Shown here: positions 5,181-52,425 of the stretch, in pieces
How the letters are laid out: each line of letters opens with the position of its first letter
Numbering within the stretch: the first letter of the stretch is position 1
NCBI RefSeq assembly: GCF_016937535.1
Contig: NZ_JAFHKK010000018.1
Location: 1 to 54,297, forward strand
Direction: 5' to 3'
Length of the DNA: 54,297 nt
Source: Sulfurospirillum tamanense
Lineage (GTDB): Bacteria > Campylobacterota > Campylobacteria > Campylobacterales > Campylobacteraceae
Translations under genes and position numbers: made by a program
Notes under the pieces: model-generated
Databases searched by the model: none
Told to the model about the DNA's origin: nothing
What the model saw: the letters and a program-made list of their open reading frames with translations, nothing else

Positions 5181-5224
5181 ACACTTCGAATGGCGGTTTT
5201 TCCTTTTTTTAAGAATTAAGTAGC

Positions 5225-5230
5225 TATAAT
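5225..5230 (+). promoter_or_regulatory. -10 element of tRNA-Arg
   Basis: TATAAT is 20 bases upstream of the first tRNA base, in an A/T-rich stretch with no clear -35 box. Confidence 0.6.
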
Positions 5231-5249
5231 ACCGTCCTTAAAACATAGT

Positions 5250-5933: not shown

Positions 5934-6455
5934 ATGAAAATCCAAACCCTCATTCACACAGCGCTTTGCGCAGAAGCAAAGCCTATTGCTGGTACTTTTG
6001 GCCTTACATGTAAAAGCACAAAACCCTTTTTGTTCTACACTGATGCTACGACGGTTTTGGTGGTTTCAGGTGTTGGATGTGAAAAGACGCGCCTTGCGTT
6101 GGCTTGCACCCTTGCGCGTTATGAGCCTGAAATAATGGTTTCGGTGGGAATCGCAGGATGCACTGATGTGAGCATTCCTGTGGGGACGTTGTTTTGCACT
6201 TCTCATGCCCACTTACCCATTCCTTTTGCAACTCTTTCCACTTATGATGTGCCAGTTGATGGAAAAAACAGACCAGAAACAACACTGGTGGACATGGAGG
6301 CGGATGCATTTGTGCAAAGTGTTCCTTGTGGCGTGGAAGCGTATGTGTTCAAAGTGGTTTCAGACCACCTTAATCCTGTACGCCCGACCAAGGGGCAAGT
6401 TGGCGATTGGATTGGACGAAGCATTGGGCGATGGAGGGGTTATGCAAAACACTAA
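5934..6455 (+). CDS. Nucleoside phosphorylase/nucleosidase-like protein (COG0775 type)
   Basis: 173 residues from ATG at 5934; an upstream in-frame start at 5898 lacks support. Family signatures are the glycine-rich VSVGIAGCTD (about residues 68-77), LVDMEADAF, which carries the Met-Glu of the ribose-binding site, and VFKVVSDHLN with the catalytic-type aspartate. It probably cleaves a purine nucleoside such as futalosine or methylthioadenosine, but the substrate cannot be assigned. At 173 residues it is shorter than MTAN or MqnB (about 230). Its end overlaps the radical SAM gene by 14 bases, so the two are translationally coupled. It contains a perfect TTACATGTAA read as LTCKS. Confidence 0.7.
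   Translation: MKIQTLIHTALCAEAKPIAGTFGLTCKSTKPFLFYTDATTVLVVSGVGCEKTRLALACTLARYEPEIMVSVGIAGCTDVSIPVGTLFCTSHAHLPIPFATLSTYDVPVDGKNRPETTLVDMEADAFVQSVPCGVEAYVFKVVSDHLNPVRPTKGQVGDWIGRSIGRWRGYAKH
6004..6013. repeat. TTACATGTAA element inside the nucleosidase-like gene
   Basis: Perfect 10-mer followed by AAAG; translated as L-T-C-K. Confidence 0.9.
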
Positions 6456-7686
6456 AACAACACGTTTTTTTGACGCAACTGCTAATACGCCTTTTGAAAA
6501 ACTCACTCCAAAAACCCAACTATTTTTGCGGGAAAAAGCTTTGTTTTACGGCTTTAGTTTTTCTCAAATACAGCAACTTATTACGTTGGCTATTGATTTT
6601 CAAATGTGGCAAATAGCTCCTCTGGAGGCGCAGTGGGAAGAGCGTGCAAATGCCAAAGCCGCTCTTGAAGCCTTACATGTAAAAGCCCAACACTACAGGC
6701 AAACCCCGAGAGACTACACGCAAGCACCCTTTGTTTTACCTAAAATGCCATTGCGCAAAGTTTTACACCATAAGGAAAAATTGAGTCTAGGGAGTTGTCC
6801 TGTCGCTTCGCCCAATACAAGGTGTTGTAATTTACTCACCCTTGATGCAGTGGAAGGGTGTGGGTTTGCGTGTACGTATTGTTCTATTCGTACCTTTTAC
6901 GGGGCGGGCGAGGTGCGTTTTGATAAGGCTTTCGGGGAGAAGTTGGCGGCACTTGAGCTGGATAAAAACAAAGTGTATCACATTGGCACAGGCCAATCTT
7001 CAGATTCGCTGATGTGGGGAAACCGCGAAGGGGTGCTCGACGCGCTCATTGCTTTTGCCCAAAAATATCCTAAGGTTATTTTAGAATTAAAAACCAAGTC
7101 TCAAGCGATTGATTATTTACTAAGCGTACCTTCTTTGCCTAGAAACATGCTTTTCACTTGGTCGTTAAATCCCCAACCTGTGATCGATCATGAAGAGCGC
7201 TATTGCGCTTCGTTGGAGCAGCGTCTTCAAGCGGCACGAGCGCTGGCAGATAAGGGTGCGTTGGTGGGGTTTCATCTGCATCCTATGATGCTTTATAGGG
7301 GATGGGAGGAGGGCTACACTGCTCTTGCTAAGAGACTTTTGACGCGTTTTTCGCCCCAAGAAGTAGCGATGGTTTCCTTGGGAACGCTGACATTTATCAA
7401 GCCAGTGCTTAAATCCCTTAGGCGAGAAGCTAGGCCTACCAAAATCCTCCAAATGCCCCTTGTGCAAACATATGGTAAATTTTCATACCCCCTAAAAACT
7501 AAAAAAGAGATGTTTTCTTTGTTTTATAATGCCCTTTCGCCTTGGCACGAAAAGGTCTTTTTTTATCTGTGCATGGAGGATAAAGGCTTGTGGAATGAGG
7601 TGTTTGGCTTCGAGTATGTGAGCAACGAGGCCCTAGAAAGAGCAATGAAAAAAGCGTATCGGGAGAAAATACAAGGAGTGTTATGA
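6442..7686 (+). CDS. Radical SAM protein, spore photoproduct lyase-like
   Basis: 414 residues from ATG 6442, chosen because GGAGG lies 4-9 bases upstream; longer in-frame starts would overlap the previous gene much further. The radical SAM cluster motif is C-x3-C-x2-C in VEGCGFACTYCSIRTFY (about residues 138-145). Like SplB it has an N-terminal region of about 130 residues before the SAM barrel, and segments such as MLFTWSLNPQPVIDHEE resemble SplB-family proteins. Bacteria of this group do not sporulate, so repair of a spore lesion is unlikely; a related DNA- or RNA-directed radical reaction is possible. It overlaps the next gene in ATGA. Confidence 0.75.
   Translation: MQNTKTTRFFDATANTPFEKLTPKTQLFLREKALFYGFSFSQIQQLITLAIDFQMWQIAPLEAQWEERANAKAALEALHVKAQHYRQTPRDYTQAPFVLPKMPLRKVLHHKEKLSLGSCPVASPNTRCCNLLTLDAVEGCGFACTYCSIRTFYGAGEVRFDKAFGEKLAALELDKNKVYHIGTGQSSDSLMWGNREGVLDALIAFAQKYPKVILELKTKSQAIDYLLSVPSLPRNMLFTWSLNPQPVIDHEERYCASLEQRLQAARALADKGALVGFHLHPMMLYRGWEEGYTALAKRLLTRFSPQEVAMVSLGTLTFIKPVLKSLRREARPTKILQMPLVQTYGKFSYPLKTKKEMFSLFYNALSPWHEKVFFYLCMEDKGLWNEVFGFEYVSNEALERAMKKAYREKIQGVL
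6673..6682. repeat. TTACATGTAA element inside the radical SAM gene
   Basis: Perfect 10-mer followed by AAG; translated as A-L-H-V-K. Confidence 0.9.
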
Positions 7687-8357
7687 AAACAGTATTGATG
7701 AGCGGAGGAAGTGGCGGCATTGGGAGTGCTATTCGCGCGACGCTTGAAGCGTGTGGGTACTGTGTGGTAAACATCGGGCGCACGCAGGCCGAAATTGTCT
7801 GTGATCTTCAAGATGCGGTTGGCTTGGAAAAAGCACTAAAAACGTGGCTCAAAACCAACACGGTAGATGTGTTGATTCATTGTGCGGGGGTAGGCGTTTT
7901 TGAGCCCCATGAAACACTTAGTGCTGCAAAAATTAAAACACTAGTTGACACTAACCTCACTGCACCTTTGGTGATTACAAGCGTGTGTTTGCGCGCATTG
8001 TGTCAAACCAAAGGGCACGTGATTAGTATCGCATCGGTTGAGGCGACGCGGCACGCGAAGTATTCTGCGCTTTATACGGCGACCAAAAGTGGGTTGCGAG
8101 ACTTTGGCTTGTGTTTGTTTGAGGAGGTTCGCAAGCAGGGGGTGCGGGTGACAACCATTAATCCCGACATGACAAAAACCCCGTTTTTTGATACATTGCA
8201 TTTTGAGCCAAGCGCCTGCGAAGAGAGCTACTTGCTACCGCAAACCCTTGCTCAAACAGTCAAGCACGTTTTGGAAACCAAGGGCGTTGTGACCGATATT
8301 ACGGTTCGGCCACAACGGGTTGGGATTGCGAAAAAAACCTTTACATGTAAAGGTTAG
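7683..8357 (+). CDS. Short-chain dehydrogenase/reductase
   Basis: 224 residues, classical SDR fold. The nucleotide-binding loop is SGGSGGIG (about residues 7-14), the CAG variant of NNAG follows strand 4, and the catalytic YTATK is near residues 129-133 with the serine in ISIAS. It probably uses NAD(P)H; the substrate is unknown. The ATG overlaps the TGA of the radical SAM gene (ATGA), so the nucleosidase, radical SAM and SDR genes form one operon. The last codons TFTCKG run through a 20-base palindrome, and the stop overlaps the stop of the convergent LysE gene by 4 bases. Confidence 0.85.
   Translation: MKTVLMSGGSGGIGSAIRATLEACGYCVVNIGRTQAEIVCDLQDAVGLEKALKTWLKTNTVDVLIHCAGVGVFEPHETLSAAKIKTLVDTNLTAPLVITSVCLRALCQTKGHVISIASVEATRHAKYSALYTATKSGLRDFGLCLFEEVRKQGVRVTTINPDMTKTPFFDTLHFEPSACEESYLLPQTLAQTVKHVLETKGVVTDITVRPQRVGIAKKTFTCKG
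8336..8355. repeat. 20-base perfect palindrome around TTACATGTAA at a convergent gene junction
   Basis: The sequence reads AACCTT, then the core TACATGTA, then AAGGTT, the longest symmetric copy in the window. It forms the final codons of the SDR gene and abuts the shared stop region with LysE. Confidence 0.9.
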
Positions 8358-8992
8358 CGTTGGGTAAATGCAAGCTTTAATCCCAATGCAACAAAGACGA
8401 AGGCGGAGAGAGTGTTGATGGTTTTGGCAATGCTAGGGTTGCGCATAAGGGCTGCACTTGCTTTGTGCGCCAAGAGACCACATGTGGAAAAGACAAGAAT
8501 GGTTGTGACCATAAATGCAAGACCAAGTTGGACCATTTGCCACGGTACTGCTCCTGCGCTTGACGAAACAAACTGAGGTAAAAAAGCCAGAAAAAACAGG
8601 GATACTTTAGGGTTGAGCACATTCATTAAAAACCCCTTGGCATAAAGGTTTTTAAGACTAAGCGGGGCTGTGTTGTTCTTTTTTGAGTCGATGCGAACAA
8701 GTTCGTTGCGGTGTTTAAAAGCTTGGTACGCTAGGTAAAATAGATACAAAGCACCCGCGTATTTGACAAGATTGAAGGCCAGTGCAGAGGTTTGAAAAAT
8801 CACCGAAATTCCAAGAGCCGCGGCGGTGGTGTGAATGAGCACGCCTGAGGTTAGGCCAAAGGTGGTAGCTAGTGCAGCTTTAGCGCCTCTTGTGATACCT
8901 TGGGTAATAACAAACAAGATGTCTGGCCCGGGACTAAGGGCCAAAAGGGCGGAAGCGCCCATAAAAAGAAGTAAGGTTTCAAGGCCAATCAT
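8354..8992 (-). CDS. LysE/RhtB-family amino acid exporter
   Basis: 212 residues with about six membrane segments. The N-terminal signature MGASALLALSPGPDILFVITQGITRG contains the SPGPD motif of the LysE/RhtB family, followed by the amphipathic segment after helix 3. It probably exports an amino acid or homoserine-lactone-like compound from the cytoplasm. Its ATG overlaps the stop of the upstream GNAT gene by 4 bases, so the two are coupled. Confidence 0.88.
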   Translation of the reverse strand: MIGLETLLLFMGASALLALSPGPDILFVITQGITRGAKAALATTFGLTSGVLIHTTAAALGISVIFQTSALAFNLVKYAGALYLFYLAYQAFKHRNELVRIDSKKNNTAPLSLKNLYAKGFLMNVLNPKVSLFFLAFLPQFVSSSAGAVPWQMVQLGLAFMVTTILVFSTCGLLAHKASAALMRNPSIAKTINTLSAFVFVALGLKLAFTQR

Positions 8993-9453
8993 TGTGAAAA
9001 AACCTCATCATAGATGCGGTAGGGGGTTTTTTTGAGGTTGAGTTTTTGGTAGTGTTCTTGGCTTTGACTATCGTCTTTGTGGGCATAAAGGCGGATACCA
9101 CACACGTTTTCATGCTCTTTGGCCAAAGCGCGCACTTTATTTAAAAGTGCGTCGTGAATCTCCCTGCATGGATCTTGAGCAAGAACAAAAATATCTTGAA
9201 TACAATAAAACAACCCATTGTTCCAATCACTCCATTCGCGGGTTACCATAGTGACGGCAACAATTTCTCCTTCGCGCTCAGCGACAACGTAAAGTCCATT
9301 GTTAAATGAGTCAAATACATAACGCACGCCCGCGGCTGTCACAGGAAGGGAAAGTTGGCGGTTTTCGTTGGCTTTGGCAAAAAAGACATTAAATTCTGCA
9401 ATGCTTGAGGCGTCATCTCTGGTGGCAATACGAACAGAAAAAGGGGTAGACAT
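8989..9453 (-). CDS. GNAT-family N-acetyltransferase
   Basis: 154 residues with the GNAT core: an N-terminal RIATRDDASSIAEFN strand-helix, a central YVVAEREGEIVAVTMV beta hairpin, then FVLAQDPCREIHDALLNKVRALA as the acetyl-CoA binding helix region. It transfers an acetyl group to an unknown amine. GGAGAATCCCC precedes the ATG. It is co-transcribed with the LysE exporter, so it might acetylate the exported substrate; that is inference. Confidence 0.8.
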   Translation of the reverse strand: MSTPFSVRIATRDDASSIAEFNVFFAKANENRQLSLPVTAAGVRYVFDSFNNGLYVVAEREGEIVAVTMVTREWSDWNNGLFYCIQDIFVLAQDPCREIHDALLNKVRALAKEHENVCGIRLYAHKDDSQSQEHYQKLNLKKTPYRIYDEVFSQ

Positions 9454-9515
9454 GGGGATTCTCCTTTGGATTCAAAAAAACGTATGATACCACAAAGGAG
9501 ATTAAGGAAAAAAAG

Positions 9516-9543
9516 AAAAAGAGCCAAAAACTTGGCTCTTTTT
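9516..9543 (-). terminator. Rho-independent terminator of lactate permease
   Basis: AAGAGCCAA (9519-9527) pairs with TTGGCTCTT (9532-9540) around a 4-base loop, extended by A/T pairs. It lies just beyond the permease stop on the minus strand and is followed in that direction by a T-rich run. Confidence 0.8.
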
Positions 9544-9546
9544 GGG

Positions 9547-11238
9547 TTACATCAGTGGGTCAGTAATCCCCAGTACATACATGCCAACAAGGCCGATAAT
9601 ACCAGAAATGATAAGATAGTAGATGGTAGGAATAACTGTTTTGCGCAAGGTTTCCCCTTCGCGATCAAGAAGTCCTACGGTTGCAGAAGCGGCAACGACG
9701 TTATGGATAGCAATCATGTTACCTGCAGCTGCACCAACGGCTTGGAGGGCCACCATAAGGGCTGTTGAGAGGCCTAGGGCTTCAGCAACACCAAATTGGT
9801 ACTGAGCAAGCATCATGTTACTTACTGTGTTGGATCCTGCAATAAACGCCCCAAGCGCTCCCACCCAAGAAGCAAAGAAAGGATAAATATCGCCTACGCT
9901 TTGGGCAACCCATGTAGCCATGGTGATTGGCATACTCGCAAGTTCAGAGCCATTAACGCCAGAGTTGATGAGAATACGTACCAAAGGAATAGTAAAGATG
10001 AGAACAAAACCCGCGCTTAGCAACAATGCGCTAGATTCTTTGAATGCTGATTTTAGCTCGCCACCTTTCATGTTGTGCAAAAAGAACGTTACAAGTGCAA
10101 CAAATACCAAGATACCACCAGGGAGGTACAGGGGTTGAATGGATGCACTTACGCCTGCTTCACCAAGGATGTTTTTAAGGCCAAAGGACCAAGCGGTAAG
10201 CATGCCTTTAAACTCAGCATTAACGCGAGAAAGCACAAGAATAATTGCTACTAGCAAGTAAGGAACCCAAGCCATGGCAAGAGAGATAGGCTTTTTGCCA
10301 GCTAGTGCGTCTAGATTAATCTCAAGTTTTCCAATCCATGCTGTTGGCCACTCGCTAGCAGGAGCAAAATCCCATGTGTTTTTGGGAATCAAAAACCCTG
10401 CTTTGGCAGCTGGAACAACAATGGCAAGGCCTACAAGCGCACCAATGATGGAAGGAAATTCTGCACCTAAAAAAATGCCCGTAAGCACGTAAGGCACTGT
10501 AAAGGCAAGACCACCAAAAATGGCAAAAGGAAGAATAGAAAGACCTTCTGTCCAGGAGCGGTTACGTCCAAAGAAGCGGGTAAGCATCATAATCATAAAC
10601 AGAGGAATCAACGTACCTGTAATGGCGTGCGTGATAGCTGCTTGAGACGTAATGGCTTGAAGGTAAGTGTCCCAGTTGGAGCCTACAGAAAGAAGGCGCT
10701 CACTGATGGTTGCTTTATCAAGTCCCGCATTAATCCCGATAAGAATCGGTGTTCCTACGGCGCCAAAAGTAACAGGGGTGCTTTGAATCATCATCCCAAT
10801 CATAACCGCCGCCATTGCAGGGAAGCCGATGGCGACCAAAAGTGGCGCAGCTACGGCTGCTGGTGTACCAAAGCCTGAGGCACCTTCGATAAACGAACCA
10901 AAAAGCCATGCAATGATAACCACTTGCACACGACGGTCAGGGCTAATGCCATTAAAGCCTGCCTTAATGGTGGTGATGGCGCCTGAGTGCTTGAGGGTAT
11001 TGAGAAGCATGATAGCCCCAAAAATAATCCACAACACGGAAATAGTAATGATGACACCTTGAACCGTAGACGCCAAAACGCGCGTAACGCTCATGTCCCA
11101 CACAAAAATCCCAATCAATGCCGTTGCGAAAAAAACAATTGGCATTGCGCGTTTTGCTGGCATCCGCAGCCCAACAAGCAAGATTCCTGAAAGGATGATT
11201 GGCATTGCTGCAAACAATGCGTACAGACCTAGACCCAT
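9547..11238 (-). CDS. lctP: L-lactate permease (LctP family)
   Basis: 563 residues, about 12 or more hydrophobic segments, full family length. Characteristic segments include [23 protein letters not shown] and [16 protein letters not shown]. It imports lactate (and glycolate in relatives) with protons across the inner membrane, giving carbon and electrons for respiration. AGAAGGAG precedes the ATG. No lactate oxidation genes are adjacent. The 340-base upstream region holds inverted repeats that may be regulatory. Confidence 0.92.
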
Positions 11239-11581
11239 AAGGTACTCCTTCTAATGTAGATTTAAACTAGGGGCATGGTAGCGACCGCACATGACAAAGA
11301 GATGAAGTTGGTATGATATAAAAATGATAAAAATAGTTACATTTTAGTGGAAATTTAAAAACAACCTAGGGAAGCAAAAATGCCCCAAAGGCTTTTAGGG
11401 GATGTTACAAAACGCCCCATGCCCAGATAATTGGGCATTTGACTGGGTTATATTGGTCAAGAGGGAGGGGCAGGGAAAAAGAAAAAGAAAAGCCTTTATT
11501 TAAGGACTTTAGCAAGGAGTCCTTAAATAAAAAAAAGAGAAGCAAAGAAAGTTTTTTAAAAGATGGGTAATTTTGAAACGC
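11239..11581. other. 343-base intergenic region upstream of lctP and downstream of murG
   Basis: No gene is seen. It holds the murG-side terminator (11495-11531) and the hairpin ATGCCCA-GATAAT-TGGGCAT (11419-11438). It also holds a weaker CCCC/GGGG pair near 11383-11400. The last two lie in the probable lctP leader and could be an operator or leader structure, but I cannot name a regulator. Confidence 0.5.
11495..11531 (-). terminator. Strong stem-loop terminator downstream of murG
   Basis: A 14-base perfect stem: TTTATTTAAGGACT (11495-11508) against AGTCCTTAAATAAA (11518-11531) with a 9-base loop. On the minus strand it follows the murG stop by about 50 bases and is followed by a T-rich tract, so it fits a rho-independent terminator. 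Confidence 0.75.
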
Positions 11582-12607
11582 CTAACGGGAGGGTTTTTCG
11601 CGCTCTAGCCACGCCACAATCTCATCCGCCCCACCTTTAGAGAGACAAGCGGGAAGTGCTAAGTTGATGCGTTTAATGTGAGCATTTTCAAGCCATGCTA
11701 GTACTGCTTGTGGAGTTGCTTCCTCTTGGCGCAATAAGCCCCCAAGGTTTTGGTTAGTAAAGGTTTTGGCGTTGTGATACTGATGGTTGCCAGCAGCATA
11801 GGGAAAAGGAATGAAAAGCGTGGGAATGCCCGCTGCACAAAGCTCCCATACACTTCCCGCACCTGCTCTAGCAATGGCGACGTCGGCCTCGTGAAGTTTG
11901 TCATGCAAGACGTTGCTAAAAGCAAATACGTCTGCATCAATGCCGTGCTTGGCGTAGAAATCCATCATTGCCTCAAGCTCGCTTTTGCCACATTGGTGAA
12001 TGATGCGAATACCTTGGTTGTGTAGTATGGGGGCAATGGCTCTTGCTAGCTGATTAATGAAACGCGCCCCTTGGCTCCCTCCTAAAAAAAGAAGTGTTTT
12101 AAGGGTGTCTCTTGCGCGGTATGCTTCAAAAAAGCGTGTTGCAACAGGGTAATTTTTAAGGGGGGAGTGCGCTTCATAAGAGCTAAAAAATGCCTTAGCG
12201 AAGGGGCGCAATAGGCTATTGAGTTTTCCTGTTATGGCATTTTGCTCATGAATATACACAGGAATGCCAAGAGTAAGTGCTGCGAGTGTTGCAGGAGCCG
12301 CCGCATAGCCTCCTACTGAAACAACTTGCAGAATGTTGTGGCGCTTAAGCAAGGCTCTACATGTAAAGAGTTGTTTGAAAATGATCCAAAGTGCTAAGAC
12401 TTTTCCCAGTCCACGTTGGTTTACTACACCCTTGCTGGGGAGAAAAACGGTGTTTTTAAACCCCGGATACCCCTCAAACCATGTTTTGTCCTGGCCGTTT
12501 GTTGAGCCAATATAAAAAGGGCGTATACCACGGGCGTTGTATGCTTCGCACAACGCTTTTGCGATAGAGAGATGGCCGCCTGTTCCCCCGCCTGTAATAA
12601 GTGTCAT
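11582..12607 (-). CDS. murG: UDP-GlcNAc:lipid I GlcNAc transferase MurG
   Basis: 341 residues from ATG 12607, where MTLITGGGTGGHL begins the family and GAGGAATCC lies upstream; the longer frame would extend far into ftsW. GGTGGH (residues about 6-11) binds the lipid I diphosphate, HEQNA and GGSQGARF follow, and AGAGSVWELCAAGIPTLFIPFP is the UDP-GlcNAc site. It makes lipid II on the inner face of the membrane. Its start overlaps the ftsW stop by 4 bases. A near-copy of the repeat (12355-12370) encodes LFTCRAL. Confidence 0.95.
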   Translation of the reverse strand: MTLITGGGTGGHLSIAKALCEAYNARGIRPFYIGSTNGQDKTWFEGYPGFKNTVFLPSKGVVNQRGLGKVLALWIIFKQLFTCRALLKRHNILQVVSVGGYAAAPATLAALTLGIPVYIHEQNAITGKLNSLLRPFAKAFFSSYEAHSPLKNYPVATRFFEAYRARDTLKTLLFLGGSQGARFINQLARAIAPILHNQGIRIIHQCGKSELEAMMDFYAKHGIDADVFAFSNVLHDKLHEADVAIARAGAGSVWELCAAGIPTLFIPFPYAAGNHQYHNAKTFTNQNLGGLLRQEEATPQAVLAWLENAHIKRINLALPACLSKGGADEIVAWLEREKPSR

Positions 12608-13767
12608 GGATTCCTCGCTTTCTTGCTTACCATCAACACCATCCCTATGCCTACACACAGTGCCAAAAGCGAACTTCCGCCGTAACTTAAAAAAGGAACA
12701 GCAATGCCTTTTATGGGAGTGATAGAGGTAATGCCATAGGCATTCATTAAAAATGAAAACACAATCAATAAGCCAATTCCTAAACTAAAAAGATAGTACA
12801 CGCGGTTTTGGCTTCGTCCAGAGATGCGGAAGATGCGGTAAATAATCACAAATATGATGAGTGTAATGCAGACCACGCCAAGCGCACCAATCTCTTCGGT
12901 GATGCCTGCCAGAACGAAGTCGGTGTGCACCTCGCTTAAAAACCCTAATTTAAAAATCCCACTACCAAGCCCTTCTCCAAATAGCCCACCGTGCTTGATA
13001 GCATTGAGGGAGTGGGAGATTTGATAGGGCTCTGGCGCATCCTCTACTCGAAGGGTGGAAGCAATAGATTCGGGAAAAAAAGAGAGGACCATGTTTTGAA
13101 TGGTGGCCCACCATGTCTTAATGCGCAAAATACGATGCTCAGAGCTAACCACCGCTGTGGTAAAAACCAATACCGAACCCAAAATAGCCAAGGAGAAAAA
13201 TTTAAAACTTGTGCCCGCAAAAAAAGCCATAACAGCTAATGTGAGCGCCAAAACAATTACTTGTCCTAGGTCGTTTTGCAAAATAGCAATGAGGTAAATT
13301 ACCAAAATAAATACCCCAATGTAGGGCAAAATTAGCTTAATTTCATCTTTGAGGGATTTTTGCTCTTCGTCGAGCTTGCGCGCAAAGCTCCACGCTAAAA
13401 AATAGACAAAGCCGATTTTAAAAAACTCCACCGGCGCAATGGAAAACCCAGGCAAGCGAATCCACCGCCTCGCTCCTCCTGATTCGGTTACTAAGGACTC
13501 AGGAAGATAGTGCATAAGGCTCATGGTAAGGATGCAGGCAAAAAAGATAAAAAACCCAATGCCCTTGAGGTATTTGTCGGGATTGAGATTGGAAAGGCCC
13601 CACATGATAAAAATACCCACCATGCCTACGGCAAATTGACGAATAAAAAAATGGTACGGGCTGTAGTTGTAAAAAAGTACCGTAAACACAGGCAATGAGA
13701 GAGAAAAAACCACACCTACGCCAATTAAAAAAGAGCAAAGATAAAAGAGGGTTTTGTCTGTTGCCAA
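12604..13767 (-). CDS. ftsW: FtsW/RodA-type peptidoglycan polymerase
   Basis: 387 residues with about ten membrane segments. SEDS-family motifs are GGARRWIRLPGFSIAPVEFFKIGFVYFLAW and the C-terminal IKGIAVPFLSYGGSSLLA. It polymerises lipid II at the division site with a class B PBP. Pairing with murG favours FtsW over RodA. I take the TTG at 13767 as start because AAGGA lies about 10 bases upstream and no ATG fits the N-terminus. It is divergent from flgB. Confidence 0.88.
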   Translation of the reverse strand: MATDKTLFYLCSFLIGVGVVFSLSLPVFTVLFYNYSPYHFFIRQFAVGMVGIFIMWGLSNLNPDKYLKGIGFFIFFACILTMSLMHYLPESLVTESGGARRWIRLPGFSIAPVEFFKIGFVYFLAWSFARKLDEEQKSLKDEIKLILPYIGVFILVIYLIAILQNDLGQVIVLALTLAVMAFFAGTSFKFFSLAILGSVLVFTTAVVSSEHRILRIKTWWATIQNMVLSFFPESIASTLRVEDAPEPYQISHSLNAIKHGGLFGEGLGSGIFKLGFLSEVHTDFVLAGITEEIGALGVVCITLIIFVIIYRIFRISGRSQNRVYYLFSLGIGLLIVFSFLMNAYGITSITPIKGIAVPFLSYGGSSLLALCVGIGMVLMVSKKARNP

Positions 13768-13842
13768 GCAAAATATCCTTAGGTGAATTTCTAGGATTGT
13801 ACCAAAAATGCGTTGAAATCTCCCTAGGCGACTTCTCCTTTA

Positions 13843-13858
13843 TGGAACGAAAATTGCT
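13843..13858 (+). promoter_or_regulatory. Sigma-54 type promoter of flgB
   Basis: TGGAACG-AAAA-TTGCT matches the RpoN consensus TGGCACG-N4-TTGCT at all but one base with exact -24/-12 spacing, about 58 bases before flgB. In Campylobacter and Helicobacter the rod genes are RpoN/FlgSR-controlled, so this is what one would expect. Confidence 0.8.
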
Positions 13859-13882
13859 TTAATTTAGCCGTGCGCCACGGCG

Positions 13883-13892
13883 TTACATGTAA
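13883..13892. repeat. TTACATGTAA element in the flgB leader
   Basis: Perfect 10-mer followed by AG (plus-oriented TACATGTAAAG), between the sigma-54 promoter and the flgB start, so it would be in the 5' untranslated region. Confidence 0.9.
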
Positions 13893-13915
13893 AGCTAATA
13901 GACAAGAGAGACAGA

Positions 13916-14344
13916 ATGGTTACGACACACAAATCTAAGCCACTATTAGAGCAAGCCCTTGCTGCGCGCTCCTTGCGCCAGCAAATGATTGCCAGTAATA
14001 TTGCGAACATTGACACGCCTTTTTATAAGTCGCGTGATGTGGATTTTGAAACCGTGCTCATCCAAAAAGCCAAAGAAATACATGGGATAAAAGAGCCCAA
14101 AGAGCTCAAGATGGCAACTTCCCACGAAAATCACCTCCAAGGAGCTTTTGGCAGTAGTTTTGGCGCGGGAATGATTTATTTGCGTGATGGGCATTTAGCG
14201 CGAAATGATGGCAATACGGTGGATTTGGACGTAGAAACCACCGAAATGAGTAAAAATGCCTTGATGATTGATGCGCTCACCCAAGCCATGAAAAAGAAAA
14301 GCGCAATTTTCAAAAGCGTGCTTGAAGCATCTGGCAAAGTATAA
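13916..14344 (+). CDS. flgB: Flagellar proximal rod protein FlgB
   Basis: 142 residues. The N-terminal rod signature ASNIANIDTPFYKSRDVDFE matches the FlgB/FlgC family ANxANxxTPGYK segment. The C-terminal helix MIDALTQAMKKKSAIFKSVLEA is typical of FlgB. It forms the proximal rod joining the MS ring to the axial structure, exported by the flagellar type III system. It is first in flgB-flgC-fliE behind a sigma-54 promoter. Confidence 0.95.
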   Translation: MVTTHKSKPLLEQALAARSLRQQMIASNIANIDTPFYKSRDVDFETVLIQKAKEIHGIKEPKELKMATSHENHLQGAFGSSFGAGMIYLRDGHLARNDGNTVDLDVETTEMSKNALMIDALTQAMKKKSAIFKSVLEASGKV

Positions 14345-14354
14345 AGGATAACCA

Positions 14355-14849
14355 ATGGCGTATTTAAGCGATTTTGACATTAGCGGGTACGGACTCTCTG
14401 CCCAGCGTTTCCGTATGAACACTATCAGCTCCAACATTGCCAATGCCAACACTACACGCACTGCAGAAGGCGGGGCTTATCGACGTAAAGAAGTGGTGTT
14501 TCGCGCTATTGATTTCAATGAGGCGCTCAATCAAGAAATTAAGAAAAATAATGCCTTCTTGGAGTACGAAAACCCCTTGGATGAAACGCTTTTGCAAAGG
14601 GATGCCAAACCTGCTATAATGAGCGTTATTGTGGATAAAGTAGTGCGTGATGATGGGGATTTTCGCCTAAAGTACGACCCTACTCACCCCGACGCGGATG
14701 CAAAAGGTTATGTGGCGTTTCCCAATATTAATCCCGTGATTGAAATGGCCGATTTGATTGAAGCAACACGTGCCTATCAGGCAAATGTTTCAGCCTTTCA
14801 AAGTGCCAAAACCATCGCCCAAAGTGCGATAGATATGTTAAGAGGATAA
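14355..14849 (+). CDS. flgC: Flagellar proximal rod protein FlgC
   Basis: 164 residues. SSNIANANTTRTAEGGAYRRKEVVF is the N-terminal rod motif, and the C-terminal EMADLIEATRAYQANVSAFQSAK is the coiled-coil shared by FlgC/FlgG proteins. It assembles with FlgB and FliE in the rod. It starts 10 bases after flgB with AAGGATAACC as ribosome site. Confidence 0.95.
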   Translation: MAYLSDFDISGYGLSAQRFRMNTISSNIANANTTRTAEGGAYRRKEVVFRAIDFNEALNQEIKKNNAFLEYENPLDETLLQRDAKPAIMSVIVDKVVRDDGDFRLKYDPTHPDADAKGYVAFPNINPVIEMADLIEATRAYQANVSAFQSAKTIAQSAIDMLRG

Positions 14850-45382: not shown

Positions 45383-46810
45383 TTGCGGTCAACACTATCT
45401 CTTGCGGGCGCACTCGTATTGACGCTGCTTACTCTTTTTTTTGCCACGCACCGTTATATTTTGTCAAACTACTACGCGCTTGAAATTTCACAAAATGAAC
45501 GCACGATTAGCGGCTTGTTGCAAAGCATCCATGCCCAAACTGATTTTGTAAAAAAAATAGCCAGAGATTATGCTGCATGGGATGATACTTTTGCTTTTGT
45601 AGAAACAGGCTCCCGTGACTTTATAAATACTAATTTTAGAGAAAACACCCACACGCTAGAGGAGCTTGAGGTTTGTGGGATGATTTTTCTTAATAGAAAC
45701 AATCAACCCGTTTGGCAAGTTTTCTCTTCCGCTCTCCACGCCCCCAAGGTGCTGATGGAAAAAGTGCTTGCGCGTGAAGGCGTGGCGTCTGGGGGATTTG
45801 TGTTTTTGGATGAAGAGATTTATTTTTATGATGGTCATCCGATTACCAAATCAGATGCCAGTGGGCCTTCAAATGGGCGATTGCTGGTTGTTGGAAAATT
45901 GGACATCGTGGCACTTAAAAACCAAAACCCTGAGCTGATTGCGCTTCATACACTCTCTTCCTTTGTATCCAAGCAAAACCCACGGCATTTTACCGTAGCG
46001 GGCAGAGAGGTTGCTGTTGTGACCCAGTGGAAAGAGGAGAGGGCGGAGAATTTTATTCATATTGGCGGGCTTGATGAGGGGCAGGGGCTTTTCGCAATCC
46101 ACGGCCGTGAAATGATGCTGCAAGGCAAGCGGGCTTTGCAGTTGTTTTTGCTAGTAGTAAGTAGCATGACAACGGTGATTTTTTTGCTTATTTTCTTTCG
46201 GCAAAAAGAAGCTCAAAAAGAGAAAGAGATTCTCAAGCAAACCGTTGCGTTGCGTACACAAGATTTAAAGCGCACTACTAAAGAACTTGAGTTGACGGTT
46301 GAAAAACTTGAGCGCATTGCTTATGTGGACGAACTTACGGGGGTTCAAACAAGACGGAGTTTTTTTGAGACGATTCGCTCCTTGCTAAAAAGTGCCGCCA
46401 AAGAGAAAAAGAACCTCTGTGTGGCGTTGATTGATTTGGATGATTTTAAACTCATTAATGACACGTATGGGCATGGGGCTGGGGATTTGGTTTTGAAAGA
46501 TTTTTGCGATGCTTGCCGAAAGTTCCTAGATGAGCGTATGCTTTTTGCACGGATTGGGGGCGAAGAGTTTGTGATTAGTTTTTACGGCATGTCACTTAAA
46601 AGTGCCGAGGCCATCTGTGTAAAAATTCAGGATTATGTGGGTGAAAATCCTGTGGCTATCGATGCTCGTACCCACGTTGCGTATACCTTTAGTCTAGGGA
46701 TGGCAGACAACGGGGATGCTGAAGATATCGATGCCATACTGCGTCAGGCAGATGAGCGGTTGTATACGGCAAAATCCCTAGGAAAAAATAACATTCGGAG
46801 TCGAAGCTAG
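45383..46810 (+). CDS. CHASE4-GGDEF diguanylate cyclase
   Basis: 475 residues starting with TTG 45383 behind AAGGAGCACC. An N-terminal membrane helix, a periplasmic CHASE4-like sensor (about residues 35-250, with KIARDYAAWDDTFAFV and a late HIGGLDEGQGLF), a second membrane helix, a coiled coil and a GGDEF domain. The active-site motif is GGEEF in ARIGGEEFVISFYG, so it should make cyclic di-GMP in response to a periplasmic signal. No RxxD inhibitory site is obvious upstream of GGEEF. Its stop overlaps the stop of the convergent thioesterase gene by CTAG. Confidence 0.9.
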   Translation: MRSTLSLAGALVLTLLTLFFATHRYILSNYYALEISQNERTISGLLQSIHAQTDFVKKIARDYAAWDDTFAFVETGSRDFINTNFRENTHTLEELEVCGMIFLNRNNQPVWQVFSSALHAPKVLMEKVLAREGVASGGFVFLDEEIYFYDGHPITKSDASGPSNGRLLVVGKLDIVALKNQNPELIALHTLSSFVSKQNPRHFTVAGREVAVVTQWKEERAENFIHIGGLDEGQGLFAIHGREMMLQGKRALQLFLLVVSSMTTVIFLLIFFRQKEAQKEKEILKQTVALRTQDLKRTTKELELTVEKLERIAYVDELTGVQTRRSFFETIRSLLKSAAKEKKNLCVALIDLDDFKLINDTYGHGAGDLVLKDFCDACRKFLDERMLFARIGGEEFVISFYGMSLKSAEAICVKIQDYVGENPVAIDARTHVAYTFSLGMADNGDAEDIDAILRQADERLYTAKSLGKNNIRSRS

Positions 46811-47277
46811 AGGTTACTGTAGCCATGCAGACGCAATTCTCGGCGTTTTTGACCGTCGTGAAAACGGCGTTTTTCGAGATCTGTTTTTGGTTCAAAGGGC
46901 GGAACCGGCACAGGCTTTCCCTCTGGGTCTACGGCCACCATTGTAAAAAAACAACTGTTGGTGTCCATAACAGTTCCTTTCTGAATGTTTTCAGAAACCA
47001 CCTTAATGCCCACCTCCATGGATGTTTTGCCCGTATAGTTAACACTGGCTAAAAACGTTACAAGATCACCCACATGTACCGAATGGCGAAAGACTACCTG
47101 GTCGACGCTCATGGTGACTACATAGCCCCCACAATAGCGTGATGCGCACGCATAAGCCACTTGGTCGAGGTATTTTAAGATGTCACCCCCGTGTACTTTG
47201 CCTGAAAAATTGGCTTTATCGGGCGTCATAAGCACGGACATGGTGAGCTTGTGTTTTTCAAAGGGTAACATTTCCAC
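46807..47277 (-). CDS. Acyl-CoA thioesterase, hotdog fold (YciA/BFIT type)
   Basis: 156 residues from GTG 47277, chosen because AAGGATGG sits 6-12 bases upstream; an ATG two codons later is possible. The core is DKANFSGKVHGGDILKYLDQVAYACASRYCGGYVVTMSVDQVVF, with the catalytic aspartate and the HGG motif. It hydrolyses acyl-CoA thioesters. It is 54 bases downstream of the ANL ligase on the same strand, so it could belong to the glutamate mutase operon. A perfect repeat overlaps its ribosome-site region. Confidence 0.87.
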   Translation of the reverse strand: MEMLPFEKHKLTMSVLMTPDKANFSGKVHGGDILKYLDQVAYACASRYCGGYVVTMSVDQVVFRHSVHVGDLVTFLASVNYTGKTSMEVGIKVVSENIQKGTVMDTNSCFFTMVAVDPEGKPVPVPPFEPKTDLEKRRFHDGQKRRELRLHGYSNL

Positions 47278-47287
47278 TAAACCATCC

Positions 47288-47297
47288 TTACATGTAA
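47288..47297. repeat. TTACATGTAA element at the thioesterase ribosome site
   Basis: Perfect 10-mer in the spacer between the ligase and thioesterase genes; on the minus strand its last TAAGG merges with the AAGGATGG Shine-Dalgarno region. Confidence 0.85.
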
Positions 47298-47331
47298 AGT
47301 TATTTGCCTTTTCCAGAGCGCTAAAAATGCT

Positions 47332-48909
47332 CTATTCAACGGCCACCACCTCTTTTTTGAGGGCTTCTTTGTCGATTTCCCCTTGGCTAGGACTCGTCAG
47401 AGGCAAGCGCAGTTTGTAAAGAATGCGCGTGGGAAGCATGTGGTTGGGCAAGTGTTTTTTGAGCTCAAAGAGTAACTCGTTTTTTGGAATCTCACTCAGA
47501 GCGCTATAGCACAAGACAATGGCTTCTTCGGTCGCTTCATCGGGGATGGAAAAGACCGCGCACTCTTTCACGGAGGGCACATGGTGGTACACTACCGTTT
47601 CGATTTCGTAAGGACTAACGCGAAAACCGCAGGATTTTATCATGTCGTCTTTGCGGTCCACAAAGTACAAAAATCCCTCTTCATCGCTATAGACATAATC
47701 ACCACTGGCTACGACAATCTCATCGGTAAGTTGCCCCTCAAGGTCAACCACATTTTTGAGTATTTGCACGCTTTTAAAGCGTTGGGCTGTAGCATCGGGC
47801 GCATTCCAAAAGCCTTTGTAGATGTACCCGCCACGGTGAATCAGTTCGCCCACTTCGCGGGGTTTGCACGCATTGCCCTCTTCGTTTAGCACGTACACTT
47901 CCACATCCGGAATGGGCTTGCCGATGGAGTTTGGACGAATGGCAAGCTGAGACGGGTCAAGGTAGGTAGAACGAAAGGCTTCAGTGAGGCCATGCATAGA
48001 GTAAAACTTGGCATGGGGGTACAGCGTGGCAATGTGTTGGAGCATCTTGGGCGTGATTTTCCCTCCTGAGGAAGTGACGGTGCGCACATGGCGCAAAAGC
48101 TCAGGATGGGGCAAGCGGTGGCCGGGTTCTTCATCGACCATCAACGAAATGTGAATAGGCATGAGGGGCAGGATGGTCACCTTGTCTTGGATGAGGTGAT
48201 TAAAAAAGTCTGAGGGCAGCACAAGGCGGTGTAAGGCGAGGGTGGCGTGTTTGTAAAGAGCGCAAAAAAGTTGGTTGAGGCCGTAGTCAAAAATGAAAGG
48301 CAAAATACCTGAGATAACGTCATGGGAGCGGATGTCAAGGTAGTGGGAAACTACCCGCGCCGAGTCGATGAGGTTGCGGTGGGTGAGGACGATGCCATTG
48401 GGTAAGGCGGAGGCGCCAAAGCTGTAGGTGATGGCGGCGTTGGCATGGCCAAGGATGGTACATGTAAAGCTTTTGGCACAACATTTGTAGATCTCTTCAA
48501 AAGAAACCAACGCCTTATCGCACGCTTCGTAGGTGATGATGGTGCCTTCAAAACTGCTCTCTTGCAAGGCGGGAAGCTTTTTGGCGTCGGTTAACACGCA
48601 GCTAATGGCGCAATCTTGAATGATGTGCTCCACTTGTTCGGGTTTGAGGAGTCTGGAGATGGGCACAAGGATGTACGGGGAAGAGAGCAGGGCGTAGATG
48701 GCGATGCATTGCTCTAGGGATTTGTGGGAGTAAATGCCCACCCGTGCTCCTTTTTTAAGGCCAAGGCTGTCAAGGTAGGTGGCCACTTGGTTGACTTTTT
48801 CAAAGAGTTCGCCGTAGGTGATGCGCCGCTCTTTTTCAATGAGGGCAATAGCTTCAGGATTGGTGCGTGCCGCGGTTTCAAGCAGGGTTCGGATGCAGTT
48901 AATCGACAT
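47332..48909 (-). CDS. ANL-superfamily (AMP-forming) ligase with degenerate catalytic motifs
   Basis: 525 residues from ATG 48909, supported by AGGAGAACACC. The overall fold is clear: NPEAIALIEKERRITYGELFEKVNQVATYL, FSMHGLTEAF in place of YGxTE, SGDYVYSDEEGFLYFVDRKDDMIKSCGFRVSPYEIE. Two core motifs are unusual. The Ser/Thr/Gly-rich P-loop (normally YTSGSTGxPKG) reads YSFGASALPNG, and the catalytic lysine of the C-terminal GKID is glutamate (GEID, near residue 511). It may activate an acid poorly or work by another chemistry. It is the fourth gene of the glutamate mutase operon and overlaps glmL by 11 bases. Confidence 0.85.
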   Translation of the reverse strand: MSINCIRTLLETAARTNPEAIALIEKERRITYGELFEKVNQVATYLDSLGLKKGARVGIYSHKSLEQCIAIYALLSSPYILVPISRLLKPEQVEHIIQDCAISCVLTDAKKLPALQESSFEGTIITYEACDKALVSFEEIYKCCAKSFTCTILGHANAAITYSFGASALPNGIVLTHRNLIDSARVVSHYLDIRSHDVISGILPFIFDYGLNQLFCALYKHATLALHRLVLPSDFFNHLIQDKVTILPLMPIHISLMVDEEPGHRLPHPELLRHVRTVTSSGGKITPKMLQHIATLYPHAKFYSMHGLTEAFRSTYLDPSQLAIRPNSIGKPIPDVEVYVLNEEGNACKPREVGELIHRGGYIYKGFWNAPDATAQRFKSVQILKNVVDLEGQLTDEIVVASGDYVYSDEEGFLYFVDRKDDMIKSCGFRVSPYEIETVVYHHVPSVKECAVFSIPDEATEEAIVLCYSALSEIPKNELLFELKKHLPNHMLPTRILYKLRLPLTSPSQGEIDKEALKKEVVAVE

Positions 48910-50086
48910 GGTGTTCTCCTGTGATGCCAAGGGTCCAAATGGCGTAATGGGTGTCTAAAACCACCGCTGGAGCGTGGTGGAGGCCGAGGATTTTTTTGTA
49001 AAAAAAGTGCAAAATACTCTCGCACTCTTCCTGACTTAATACCTTAGTGATGCCGCCGGTGAGCACGATGCTCTCCAAGCGTTCAAGCCCCAAAGTAATG
49101 TAGCCTTGGTGAAACTTGGAGGTTTTGTATAGCACTAAAAAGATGGAGAGTTGCATGAGTACATGTAAGGCTTTTTCGCTGTGCTCTTCAAAGATTTTCT
49201 CTGTCACATCCAGCGTGCTTAAGAGTTCGTACACGTACTCGTTTTGTTTGGCCGCGTGGATGAGGCTCTCTTTGGATTTGTACACACCGAGTTTCTTAAA
49301 AACCAAGCGGTCGTAGGCGTTGCCCGTGAGCAAGCGTTCACTTACAAGGTCTTTGCTGTAGTGGATGTCCGTCGTCGCCCCGCCAATGTCAAGGACGATG
49401 AAGGGGTCCACGACTTCGAGTTGCTCCCCGATGCGTGGCAACGCGCGGTTGACGATGTAAGGCGTGGGGTAGATTTGGTTAGCGGTGATGGCGTAGAGTT
49501 CTTTGATCTCTTCTTTGCCCATAATGTCCGCTTGGTAGAGATTGGTGAGGGTGGTTTTTAGGGGTTCTTCTTGGATGTGTAAGCGTTCGTCAATGATGTT
49601 GGGCAAAAGGATAGCATGGGGAAGATTGGCGCTGATAAAGGGCGTATCTTGCGCAGTGCCTACGTACACAAGGTTAGTGTAGTTTAGGTTTTGAAGGTAG
49701 GTCAACAAGGCATCATCAAACACGCCATTGACGCCATCAATCCCGCCTACCAAAATGACTACGTCTAGCACGTCGCCTGGGACGGGAGCGTGGGCGATGT
49801 CTTTGTACAGGACGGTATCGATGATGTTGATGCCCGCGTTGTAGGTAATGTTTTTGGCGTATTTGAGGCTAAAGGAGTGGGTTAGGCCGATAATCAGCGT
49901 ACTTAAACCACCATTTGCAGAAGAGCAGATGTAAATATCTTCTTTGGGTACGCCTTGGAGGAGTTCCCCACATTTGGCGCGTAAATCTTCGTGGATGGGG
50001 CGTGAAAAATCCCGAAAATGCTGGCTAAGGCCATGGGCGGAGGCGGTTTTGATGTAGGTGCTTCCCACGTCGATGAGTAGTTTCAT
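48899..50086 (-). CDS. glmL: MutL/GlmL-type protein associated with glutamate mutase
   Basis: 395 residues, ASKHA ATPase fold. The N-terminal phosphate-1 loop is LLIDVGSTYIKTA, the second is FIVLDIGGATTDIHYS (about residues 225-240), and the adenosine motif is SIVLTGGITKVLS. This family protects or reactivates coenzyme B12-dependent glutamate mutase. It is shorter than clostridial MutL (about 460). It overlaps glmE by 4 bases. A one-mismatch repeat encodes ALHVLM. Confidence 0.87.
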   Translation of the reverse strand: MKLLIDVGSTYIKTASAHGLSQHFRDFSRPIHEDLRAKCGELLQGVPKEDIYICSSANGGLSTLIIGLTHSFSLKYAKNITYNAGINIIDTVLYKDIAHAPVPGDVLDVVILVGGIDGVNGVFDDALLTYLQNLNYTNLVYVGTAQDTPFISANLPHAILLPNIIDERLHIQEEPLKTTLTNLYQADIMGKEEIKELYAITANQIYPTPYIVNRALPRIGEQLEVVDPFIVLDIGGATTDIHYSKDLVSERLLTGNAYDRLVFKKLGVYKSKESLIHAAKQNEYVYELLSTLDVTEKIFEEHSEKALHVLMQLSIFLVLYKTSKFHQGYITLGLERLESIVLTGGITKVLSQEECESILHFFYKKILGLHHAPAVVLDTHYAIWTLGITGEHHVD

Positions 50087-51447
50087 TGCATGACTCCAAT
50101 GTCGTGGATGATTTTTTCCACCATGGCGGTTTTGTTTTCAAAGCTTCCCGCTTTTGCCCGCTCATATGCTAGGCAACGCGCAGGGATAGGCACGTTACCT
50201 GGTTCCACGATGCGAATTGACCCACTGGGGTCGCGCAGGGTCAAGATGGCGTTGTGGTTGATGATGTGGGGCGAAAAAGGCACGTCGATGATGCCGTGCT
50301 TGATGGCGTTAAATGCCTTGCGCCACAAGGAGTCGGCAGGGTCGTTAAAGACCGCTTCCATGATGGCATGCACGGCAAGCTCTAAGTGTTCTTCTTCTTC
50401 GCCATCTTCAAACTGGGGCAGTCCTTGGACGATGCGCAAGATGTATTGGGTGTTGGCCACCGCTTGGGCGTTGCACTCCATGGTGGGGATGCCAAAGGCT
50501 TCGTCGCGGGTTTTGGTGATGATTTTATCGGCTCCTACCAATGTGGCAACGAGCGTGGCGGTGGTGATGAGCGCATCAGAGAACTCTTTGTTGCGCGGGA
50601 AAGCACCCATCCATTGGTGGTACACGAGCTGTGTTTTTGCACCCGCGCATCCGTGCAAGGCGGCGTAATGGGGGGCGAGTTTTTTGAGTACCTTGGCGGT
50701 GATGATGTCTTGGGAGAGCGAACCTGACTGGGAAAAACTCACCGAAAAACTCCGCACCCCTTCTTCCAAAGAAAGCAACATTTCAAGGAGTTGGATGACG
50801 ATGGTGATGGCGGGAGGCACCAAGGTGGCGGTGAGTGGCCCAAAGGATTCGCGGTTGATGGGCAGGTTGAGCGTTGAGTAGTGGGCGCACACTTTTTCCA
50901 CGTATTTCCAGTACAAAAAGGCCTTATCTAGCGGGAAGTTTTTGGAGTAAGGAAGCATGTAGGTGATGGGCCCGCCTTCAATCTCAAAAATCCCACTGGC
51001 AATGGCCGTTTCTACCAAGAGCCTTGCATCGGGCGTGCCATGGCGCAGGCTCACAGGGAGGTTGAAATGGGTCATCATTTTGCGCGTGGTGCGGTAGCCG
51101 TGGTTGATGAGCGGGAAGCCGTTGAGCATGTCGGTTTCGTTTTCTTCGGAGAGCATGAGCATTTTTTTGGCACTGGCGTAGTCGTTAAGGCGTGTGTGCG
51201 AATCAATAGTAATAGGCAAGACGTCGATGCCAGCCCCTGCAAAGGTTTCGTAGAGTTTGAACATTTTTTGGTACGTGGGAAAGCCCCCGCGAGGTTGGAC
51301 GAGCATTTTTGTTTTGGTGGCGTAGTGGTGGGAGATGAAGAGGTTTTTATCGGCTCCCTTGACAAACTCTTCCACTTCGGCAAAGTCAAAATTGTCCACG
51401 TATTCGTTAGACACGATGGTCTGGCGCTCCCGCTCAAACAGGCTCAT
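50083..51447 (-). CDS. glmE: Glutamate mutase epsilon (E) subunit
   Basis: 454 residues, TIM-barrel substrate-binding subunit of methylaspartate mutase, which interconverts glutamate and (2S,3S)-3-methylaspartate. The substrate contacts known in Clostridium cochlearium are all present at a constant offset of 13-14: Arg53 (QPRGG), Arg86 (SHTRLN), Arg135 (LRHGTPDARLL), Glu157, Tyr163 and Tyr167 (EGGPITYMLPYSKN). The Lys/Glu pair is also present in KTRDEAFGIPT. The enzyme should therefore be active on glutamate. It overlaps glmS and glmL by 4 bases each. Confidence 0.93.
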   Translation of the reverse strand: MSLFERERQTIVSNEYVDNFDFAEVEEFVKGADKNLFISHHYATKTKMLVQPRGGFPTYQKMFKLYETFAGAGIDVLPITIDSHTRLNDYASAKKMLMLSEENETDMLNGFPLINHGYRTTRKMMTHFNLPVSLRHGTPDARLLVETAIASGIFEIEGGPITYMLPYSKNFPLDKAFLYWKYVEKVCAHYSTLNLPINRESFGPLTATLVPPAITIVIQLLEMLLSLEEGVRSFSVSFSQSGSLSQDIITAKVLKKLAPHYAALHGCAGAKTQLVYHQWMGAFPRNKEFSDALITTATLVATLVGADKIITKTRDEAFGIPTMECNAQAVANTQYILRIVQGLPQFEDGEEEEHLELAVHAIMEAVFNDPADSLWRKAFNAIKHGIIDVPFSPHIINHNAILTLRDPSGSIRIVEPGNVPIPARCLAYERAKAGSFENKTAMVEKIIHDIGVMQ

Positions 51448-51848
51448 GCGCGCTCCTTCAAGTAAGCTTCCAAACGGTCAAGGCCCGTGTTGAGGTCGAT
51501 TTGGTGAAACACGAGGTCGAAGCCGTAGGCTTGGTATTTTGGCACAATAGTATCGTGGTTGGCTTCGCCCACGGCAAGGTTGCCGCCAATCATAAAGGTG
51601 ACGTTGCCAAAGTCGCGTTGGGATTTAATGAAGGGCAATTCACGGCACCATCCTTCGGCTTCGCCGTTGAGGGAAGAGATAAGCAAGATGTCTGCTTTGG
51701 TTTCGATGAGGGCATCGATGAACTCATCAAGGGAGGTGTTCACACCAAGGTTAAATACTTCAAATCCGCGGGCTTCAAGGGAGATGTGAATGAGACGGTT
51801 GGCAACAACGTGGATGTCGTTTCCAACTACACCAGTGACGACTTTCAT
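51444..51848 (-). CDS. glmS: Glutamate mutase sigma (S) subunit, cobalamin-binding
   Basis: 134 residues from ATG 51848 (MKVVTGVVGNDIHVVANRL). The B12-binding motif DxHxxG appears as D11-x-H13-x-x-A16, keeping the cobalt-ligating histidine but with alanine for glycine. The SxL of LLISSLNG and the GG of FMIGGNLAVG, which line the nucleotide tail pocket, are present. It is the first gene of the operon and overlaps glmE by 4 bases. It should not be confused with glucosamine synthase GlmS. Confidence 0.9.
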   Translation of the reverse strand: MKVVTGVVGNDIHVVANRLIHISLEARGFEVFNLGVNTSLDEFIDALIETKADILLISSLNGEAEGWCRELPFIKSQRDFGNVTFMIGGNLAVGEANHDTIVPKYQAYGFDLVFHQIDLNTGLDRLEAYLKERA

Positions 51849-51948: not shown

Positions 51949-52425
51949 ATGGGGTTTTTTACAGCAGATTTTTGCGATACATGTAAGGAAGGGATTCAAG
52001 TCCTCGGGCCAGGATTTTCGAACTTTGGGGGCAAGAAAAAGATGAAAGGTTCGCTTGTTACAGTCAAGCTCAATGAAAACAACCAAGAACTCATCCGCGT
52101 GTTGGACGAGGCGGGCCAAGGACGCGTGGTGGTGGTGGATGTGCAAGGGGTGTACGTGGCGGTTGTGGGGGAGAATTTAATGAAAAAAGCCCTTAAAAAC
52201 GGGTGGAGTGGTTTTGTGATTAACGGCTACGTGCGCGACGTGCATGCAACCAAGGAGATTGGGGTGGGCTTGTGGGCGCTGGGGACTTGCCCCCGAAAAT
52301 GTCCTGATTTATTGCCTGGATTTGTGGACCACACGGTAGAGTTTGGCGGTGTAAAATTTGAGCCAGGTGCCTACGTGTACGCGGACATGGACGGGGTGAT
52401 TGTGAGCAAGGAAGCCTTAATTTGA
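51949..52425 (+). CDS. rraA: RraA-family protein (RNase E inhibitor-like/aldolase-like)
   Basis: 158 residues, full RraA length. It starts GFFTADFCDTCKEGIQVLGPGF and contains GKKKMKGSLVTVKL, GRVVVVDVQGVYVAVVGENLMKKA, GFVINGYVRDV and a C-terminal GAYVYADMDGVIVS. Members bind RNase E or act as 4-hydroxy-4-methyl-2-oxoglutarate aldolases. If this organism lacks RNase E, a metabolic or other role is likelier. A one-mismatch repeat (51977-51986) encodes DTCKEG. Confidence 0.88.
   Translation: MGFFTADFCDTCKEGIQVLGPGFSNFGGKKKMKGSLVTVKLNENNQELIRVLDEAGQGRVVVVDVQGVYVAVVGENLMKKALKNGWSGFVINGYVRDVHATKEIGVGLWALGTCPRKCPDLLPGFVDHTVEFGGVKFEPGAYVYADMDGVIVSKEALI

Follow-up and report, generated by a model that had tools for sequence, protein, structure and literature searches.

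Why does Sulfurospirillum tamanense, a member of the Campylobacterota, keep the genes for a glutamate mutase directly against the gene for an ANL-superfamily ligase? Among B12 enzymes, glutamate mutase is a textbook example, familiar from fermentation and from a few antibiotics. In the window analyzed here, a stretch of 54,297 nucleotides (positions 1 to 54,297 of contig NZ_JAFHKK010000018.1, assembly GCF_016937535.1), a preliminary description had placed both mutase subunits (glmS and glmE), glmL, the ligase, and a hotdog thioesterase in one operon, and proposed that 3-methylaspartate is made and then activated or conjugated by the ligase. Much of that interpretation stands, namely the mutase, the missing ammonia-lyase, the likeness of the ligase to VinN of vicenistatin biosynthesis, and the linkage of the genes; the thioesterase does not belong, and an RraA-family gene and a gammaproteobacterial aminotransferase had been overlooked. 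The conserved unit consists of glmS, glmE, glmL, the ligase, and the divergent RraA-type gene. It probably feeds a small-molecule pathway that has yet to be described. To our minds the chances are about even that it is a self-contained B12-dependent module that makes and activates 3-methylaspartate, with RraA and the aminotransferase as a side branch.

The four-gene operon is real: its coordinates and family assignments hold, and the successive genes from glmS to the ligase overlap by 4, 4, and 11 bases. We followed the gene set through 397 Campylobacterota genomes, sampled evenly and representing 68 genera; 57 of the genomes encode GlmE and 340 do not; the GlmE-positive genomes fall in 20 genera. 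The ligase is present in 56 of the 57 and in none of the 340, the sole GlmE-positive genome lacking it being a fragmented metagenome-assembled genome of 170 contigs. Scanning 84,980 genomes of named species yielded 80 loci on named contigs. Rather than always standing apart from the mutase, orthologues of the ligase lie beside glmL in 79/80 of these contigs, with glmE in 71 and with glmS in 66; many of the contigs stop inside the operon, and the losses of glmE and glmS fall where contigs end. Chance does not explain this linkage of the ligase to the mutase genes. The gene set is conserved more widely than had been thought, across the Campylobacterota (Sulfurospirillum, Arcobacter, Sulfurimonas, and Sulfurovum among the hosts) and beyond: many of the 80 loci belong to marine Gammaproteobacteria, including Colwellia, Neptuniibacter, and Halieaceae. 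When 20 loci were fetched, all 20 contained glmS, glmE, and glmL, and the ligase followed glmL in 19. One locus keeps all four operon genes with an insert of ~4.5 kb (10134-14648) between glmE and glmL, whose genes are mostly on the opposite strand.

GlmS and GlmE are, judged by their sequences, close to certain to convert glutamate to 3-methylaspartate. GlmE matches the clostridial glutamate mutase structures 6h9e and 1cb7 with an E-value of about 1e-81, and all 14 active-site residues that we checked are identical to those of Clostridium cochlearium GlmE (R66, R100, R149, E171, Y177, Y181, K322, K326, E330, and five more); we take their roles, as a substrate-binding arginine claw and in adenosyl binding, to be those of the C. 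cochlearium structure. The claim of a functional-looking mutase is thus borne out. GlmE scores slightly below the TIGR01503 cut-off (373 bits against 390). GlmS falls in the B12-binding/GlmS family, exceeds the cut-off of PRK02261 (155 bits against 110), and matches the solved GlmS structure 1be1 (E=4e-22). Its base-off cobalamin motif reads D-x-H-x-x-A, not D-x-H-x-x-G, in 21/21 aligned orthologues, with the Asp and His kept. GlmL is shorter than clostridial GlmL and reaches 82 bits with NF040745, far under the cut-off of 475.

The ligase pocket also points to 3-methylaspartate. Among all PDB chains, VinN (3wvn) is the top match of the ligase core (residues 170-450, E=4e-28); residue numbers count from the TTG at 48930 where the open reading frame begins, the conserved Met lying at 48909. 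VinN reads 3-methylaspartate as a beta-amino acid through D230, F231, S299, K330, and R331 (PMC11253843), and these align with D215, Y216, S288, F319, and R320 of the ligase, all five invariant in 81/81 homologues. The two enzymes therefore share the amino-group Asp, an aromatic residue at 231, Ser299, and Arg331, and the VinN analogy drawn earlier survives this comparison. The nearest ligase family is the exosortase-A-associated TIGR03098, the best NCBIfam model at 454 bits, although the S. tamanense protein falls below its cut-off of 592. Those ligases have the same LTEAFRSTYL loop with Arg331 and share the Asp, but at the two beta-amino-acid positions (231 and 299) they have Ala and Thr where the ligase here has Tyr and Ser. 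No exosortase or polysaccharide context was found at the loci of the present unit that we read. An AlphaFold model of the ligase shows the ANL fold with confidence (pLDDT 85); the neighbors returned by a structure search with it are generic ANL enzymes and do not discriminate the substrate. Taken together, these features of sequence make it likely that the predicted reaction of the ligase is adenylation of 3-methylaspartate, and we consider this substrate somewhat better than an even bet.

The fifth member of the unit, the RraA-family gene, occurs in 57/57 GlmE-positive genomes and in 15/340 without GlmE (Fisher's test 2e-55, a value overstated by the relatedness of the genomes). Thirteen of the 57 have it on a different contig from the operon or at a distance above 10 kb; because the gene is retained even when unlinked, adjacency alone fails to explain the co-occurrence. 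Its (D/E)-X20-R-D metal and catalytic motif is intact (E75-X20-R96-D97) and is kept in the aligned orthologues, unlike that of the RNase E regulator RraA of Escherichia coli, where Ala and Gln occupy the two acidic positions. The operon-linked copies thus keep both the fold family and the motif of HMG/CHA aldolases. Where the motif is present, RraA homologues are mostly regarded as class II pyruvate aldolases, and enzymes of this HMG/CHA aldolase kind decarboxylate oxaloacetate by way of a pyruvate enolate (PMC5065237). In 15 loci, all gammaproteobacterial, an aromatic/aspartate aminotransferase adjoins RraA or glmS; the one copy tested belongs to NF006719 (566 bits).

We also looked for the known partners of glutamate mutase. 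Methylaspartate ammonia-lyase has no match in the S. tamanense genome, as the preliminary description had supposed for the locus, so that this enzyme is not encoded elsewhere in the genome either; none of full length was found in 72 other GlmE-positive genomes, where the partial matches of 19-40 bits are of the kind expected from other proteins of the enolase superfamily. Nor was a dedicated carrier protein found, again in line with what had been claimed: the S. tamanense genome has one PF00550 (PP-binding) protein, encoded between FabF-type and FabG-type genes. Exactly one PF00550 match is present in 23 of the 57 GlmE-positive genomes, for which we reject an unlinked dedicated carrier; the remaining genomes have one to eight additional matches. 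A VinO-like (TIGR03099-type) decarboxylase was not found over the cut-off in the S. tamanense genome, and its two weak matches below the cut-off are probably LysA and a second decarboxylase sharing its fold. The operon flanks contain no genes for polyketide synthases (PKS) or non-ribosomal peptide synthetases (NRPS). One GlmE-positive Campylobacterota genome has several very long open reading frames of up to 3241 amino acids with many carrier domains (contig 1, ~2.18-2.20 Mb), which are probably NRPS or PKS genes.

From these data we infer the following scheme. GlmS and GlmE, kept active by GlmL, would convert L-glutamate to (2S,3S)-3-methylaspartate. The ligase would bind this product as a beta-amino acid in the manner of VinN, with Asp215 holding the amino group, Arg320 holding the free carboxylate, and Tyr216 and Ser288 giving the pocket its shape; it would adenylate the other carboxyl group and hand it to CoA, to the fatty-acid acyl carrier protein (ACP), or directly to an amine, the candidate acceptors because there is no dedicated carrier. 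The aspartate-family aminotransferase and RraA, acting as a metal-dependent 2-oxoacid aldolase or decarboxylase, could provide a drain or second branch that leads from 3-methylaspartate through 3-methyloxaloacetate to 2-oxobutyrate. We tentatively extend this to a carrier-free pathway that is old in the Campylobacterota and was passed to marine Gammaproteobacteria, in which 3-methylaspartate may be made solely for activation by the ligase and attachment to a general component of the cell (CoA, an amine, a lipid, or a sugar). The outcome would be a metabolite or cofactor not yet described, and RraA would act as a partner in metabolism and not as a regulator of an RNase. In the ligase tree the gammaproteobacterial sequences group together next to Sulfurimonas; the root is uncertain, and the grouping is consistent with one transfer. 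A literature search found no paper joining glutamate mutase, ligase, and RraA genes, which is weak evidence given its thin coverage of subscription journals.

Several observations weigh against this scheme. Over its full length the ligase is closer to the exosortase-associated ligases (35-37% identity) than to VinN, with which it shares 28% over the core, and K330 of VinN is replaced by Phe. Adenylation usually requires the A10 lysine, but the S. tamanense ligase has Glu there (residue 518, window position ~47377); among the 81 homologues, 41 have K at this position, 27 have Q, 6 have R, and 3 have E. The A3 loop (residues 170-179) is degenerate, and Phe replaces the Ser/Thr of the P-loop in 80/81 homologues. 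These A10 and P-loop substitutions look unusual for an active ANL enzyme; because the A10 lysine is often replaced and the A3 loop is degenerate, the activity of the ligase may be weak or of an unusual kind. Shared ancestry also inflates the counts of co-occurrence. Finally, the aminotransferase is unlinked to the operon in Campylobacterota, and RraA could be a mere neighbor with a separate role of its own.

The alternative that survives best puts the side branch at the center, with the unit as another supply of 2-oxobutyrate: glutamate would be converted to 3-methylaspartate and this transaminated to 3-methyloxaloacetate, which RraA would decarboxylate to 2-oxobutyrate, a precursor for isoleucine or propionyl-CoA; the ligase would have a secondary part. 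The conservation of GlmS, GlmE, RraA, and the aminotransferase in gammaproteobacterial loci fits this route, as do the intact RraA motif and the oxaloacetate decarboxylation described above for HMG/CHA aldolases. Because threonine deaminase IlvA is encoded in 57/57 GlmE-positive genomes, however, isoleucine synthesis does not depend on the route, and we reject isoleucine as the sole purpose of the operon. The route also gives no role to the ligase, which is co-inherited as strictly as RraA, and we regard it as unlikely.

Less probable still is secondary metabolism of the VinN type, in which the activated amino acid would be loaded onto an unlinked carrier and, after decarboxylation, incorporated into a polyketide or peptide. 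The vicenistatin starter pathway uses the glutamate mutase VinH/VinI, the decarboxylase VinO, and the carrier VinL. It resembles the present unit in pairing glutamate mutase with an ANL ligase, and VinN is the closest structure to the ligase core; the operon here differs in that it lacks a carrier protein, a VinO-type decarboxylase, and a PKS and has RraA as a partner instead. The TIGR03098 relatives of the ligase lend the idea some weight, since they sit with an ACP and the pyridoxal phosphate (PLP)-dependent decarboxylase TIGR03099 in polysaccharide clusters, although no glutamate mutase is present in the loci of that family that we read. So does a plasmid of Streptomyces sp. NBC_01216 (5501-13059), where glmS-glmE is followed by genes for a lantibiotic dehydratase, an acyl carrier protein, an AMP-binding enzyme, and an ATP-grasp protein; this set looks like an uncharacterized biosynthetic cluster built on 3-methylaspartate. 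Against it stand the single ACP beside FabF- and FabG-type genes in S. tamanense, the lone PF00550 match in 23/57 genomes, the failure to find a TIGR03099-type decarboxylase over the cut-off in the S. tamanense genome, and the flanks free of PKS and NRPS genes.

A variant of glutamate fermentation or of the methylaspartate cycle, in which the ligase would replace a CoA-transferase and form mesaconyl-CoA or a related CoA ester, is highly improbable. This is the known partner pathway of glutamate mutase, and the clostridial and rhizobial systems share GlmS, GlmE, GlmL, and their active sites with the unit studied here; in rhizobial and rhodobacteral loci, glutamate mutase is found with ammonia-lyase, CoA-transferase, and CoA ester lyase. 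In the present unit, however, the ligase and RraA take the place of ammonia-lyase and mesaconate genes, no full-length ammonia-lyase is encoded in S. tamanense or the 72 further genomes, and the Asp in the ligase pocket points to an amino-bearing substrate. That the ligase is an ordinary acyl-CoA synthetase merely adjoining glutamate mutase in a few related genomes is scarcely credible: AMP-binding enzymes are common, and the S. tamanense genome has three weaker paralogues of the ligase elsewhere, but co-occurrence in 56/57 genomes, linkage in 79/80 contigs from two phyla, and the overlapping genes contradict it.

Coordinates of the operon and its neighbors in the window
Feature	Position	Strand	Remarks
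glmS, B12-binding sigma subunit of glutamate mutase	51444-51848	-	conserved Met at 51848; open reading frame open to TTG at 51902
glmE, catalytic epsilon subunit of glutamate mutase	50083-51447	-	PF06368 / Met_asp_mut_E, 390 bits
glmL, MutL-type ATPase, probable mutase reactivation or assembly factor	48899-50086	-	PF13941 (MutL), 97 bits
ANL-superfamily (AMP-forming) ligase with VinN-like pocket	47332-48909	-	PF00501 (AMP-binding), 211 bits, and AMP-binding_C
YciA-like hotdog thioesterase	46807-47277	-	4HBT, 66 bits; judged outside the conserved unit
RraA-family protein	51949-52425	+	divergently transcribed; PF03737, 133 bits; functional partner by co-occurrence
CHASE4-GGDEF diguanylate cyclase	45383-46810		downstream; convergent with the thioesterase, 3' ends overlapping by 4 bases

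We reject the thioesterase, separated from the ligase by 54 bases, as a member of the unit. It adjoins the operon solely in this genus (the S. tamanense window and isolate Kmv14), is not among the gene clusters common to the 20 other loci, and is also found in relatives from another genus in which no GlmE was seen. The diguanylate cyclase is 65% identical to the copy in the sister species. No riboswitch or other Rfam RNA element reached the gathering threshold in the 11 loci scanned.

A search for GlmE within the family to which S. tamanense belongs returned a match in its genome only. This restriction is partly an assembly artefact, and we do not accept it as a limit on the distribution: the sister species Kmv14 has part of the operon, with a contig that starts in the last 28 codons of glmE and continues through glmL and the ligase. 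Between S. tamanense and Kmv14, synonymous divergence (dS) is 0.45 for glmL and 0.31 for the ligase, compared to 1.56 for the adjoining thioesterase and 1.31 for the AraC-type gene that also flanks the operon, and the G+C content of the operon is 50.7% compared to 46.4% for the window. The low dS of glmL and the ligase, together with the higher G+C, suggests that the operon was recently exchanged within the genus or is under unusual constraint.

Another glutamate mutase may stand beside an enzyme that activates the beta-carboxyl group. On a plasmid of Methylobacter sp. YRD-M1 (4847-10207), genes lie in a row for asparagine synthetase A, a B12 protein resembling GlmS, an unnamed protein where GlmL would be expected, a protein resembling GlmE, and an EamA transporter; the set perhaps makes 3-methylasparagine.

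The unit in S. tamanense would represent a third, widely conserved use of glutamate mutase, in free-living Campylobacterota and marine gammaproteobacteria. It is a defined set of five genes with several cultured hosts, and the question of its product is directly testable. If our reading is true, a catalytic function would also follow for RraA homologues that bacterial annotation usually presents as regulators of RNase E.

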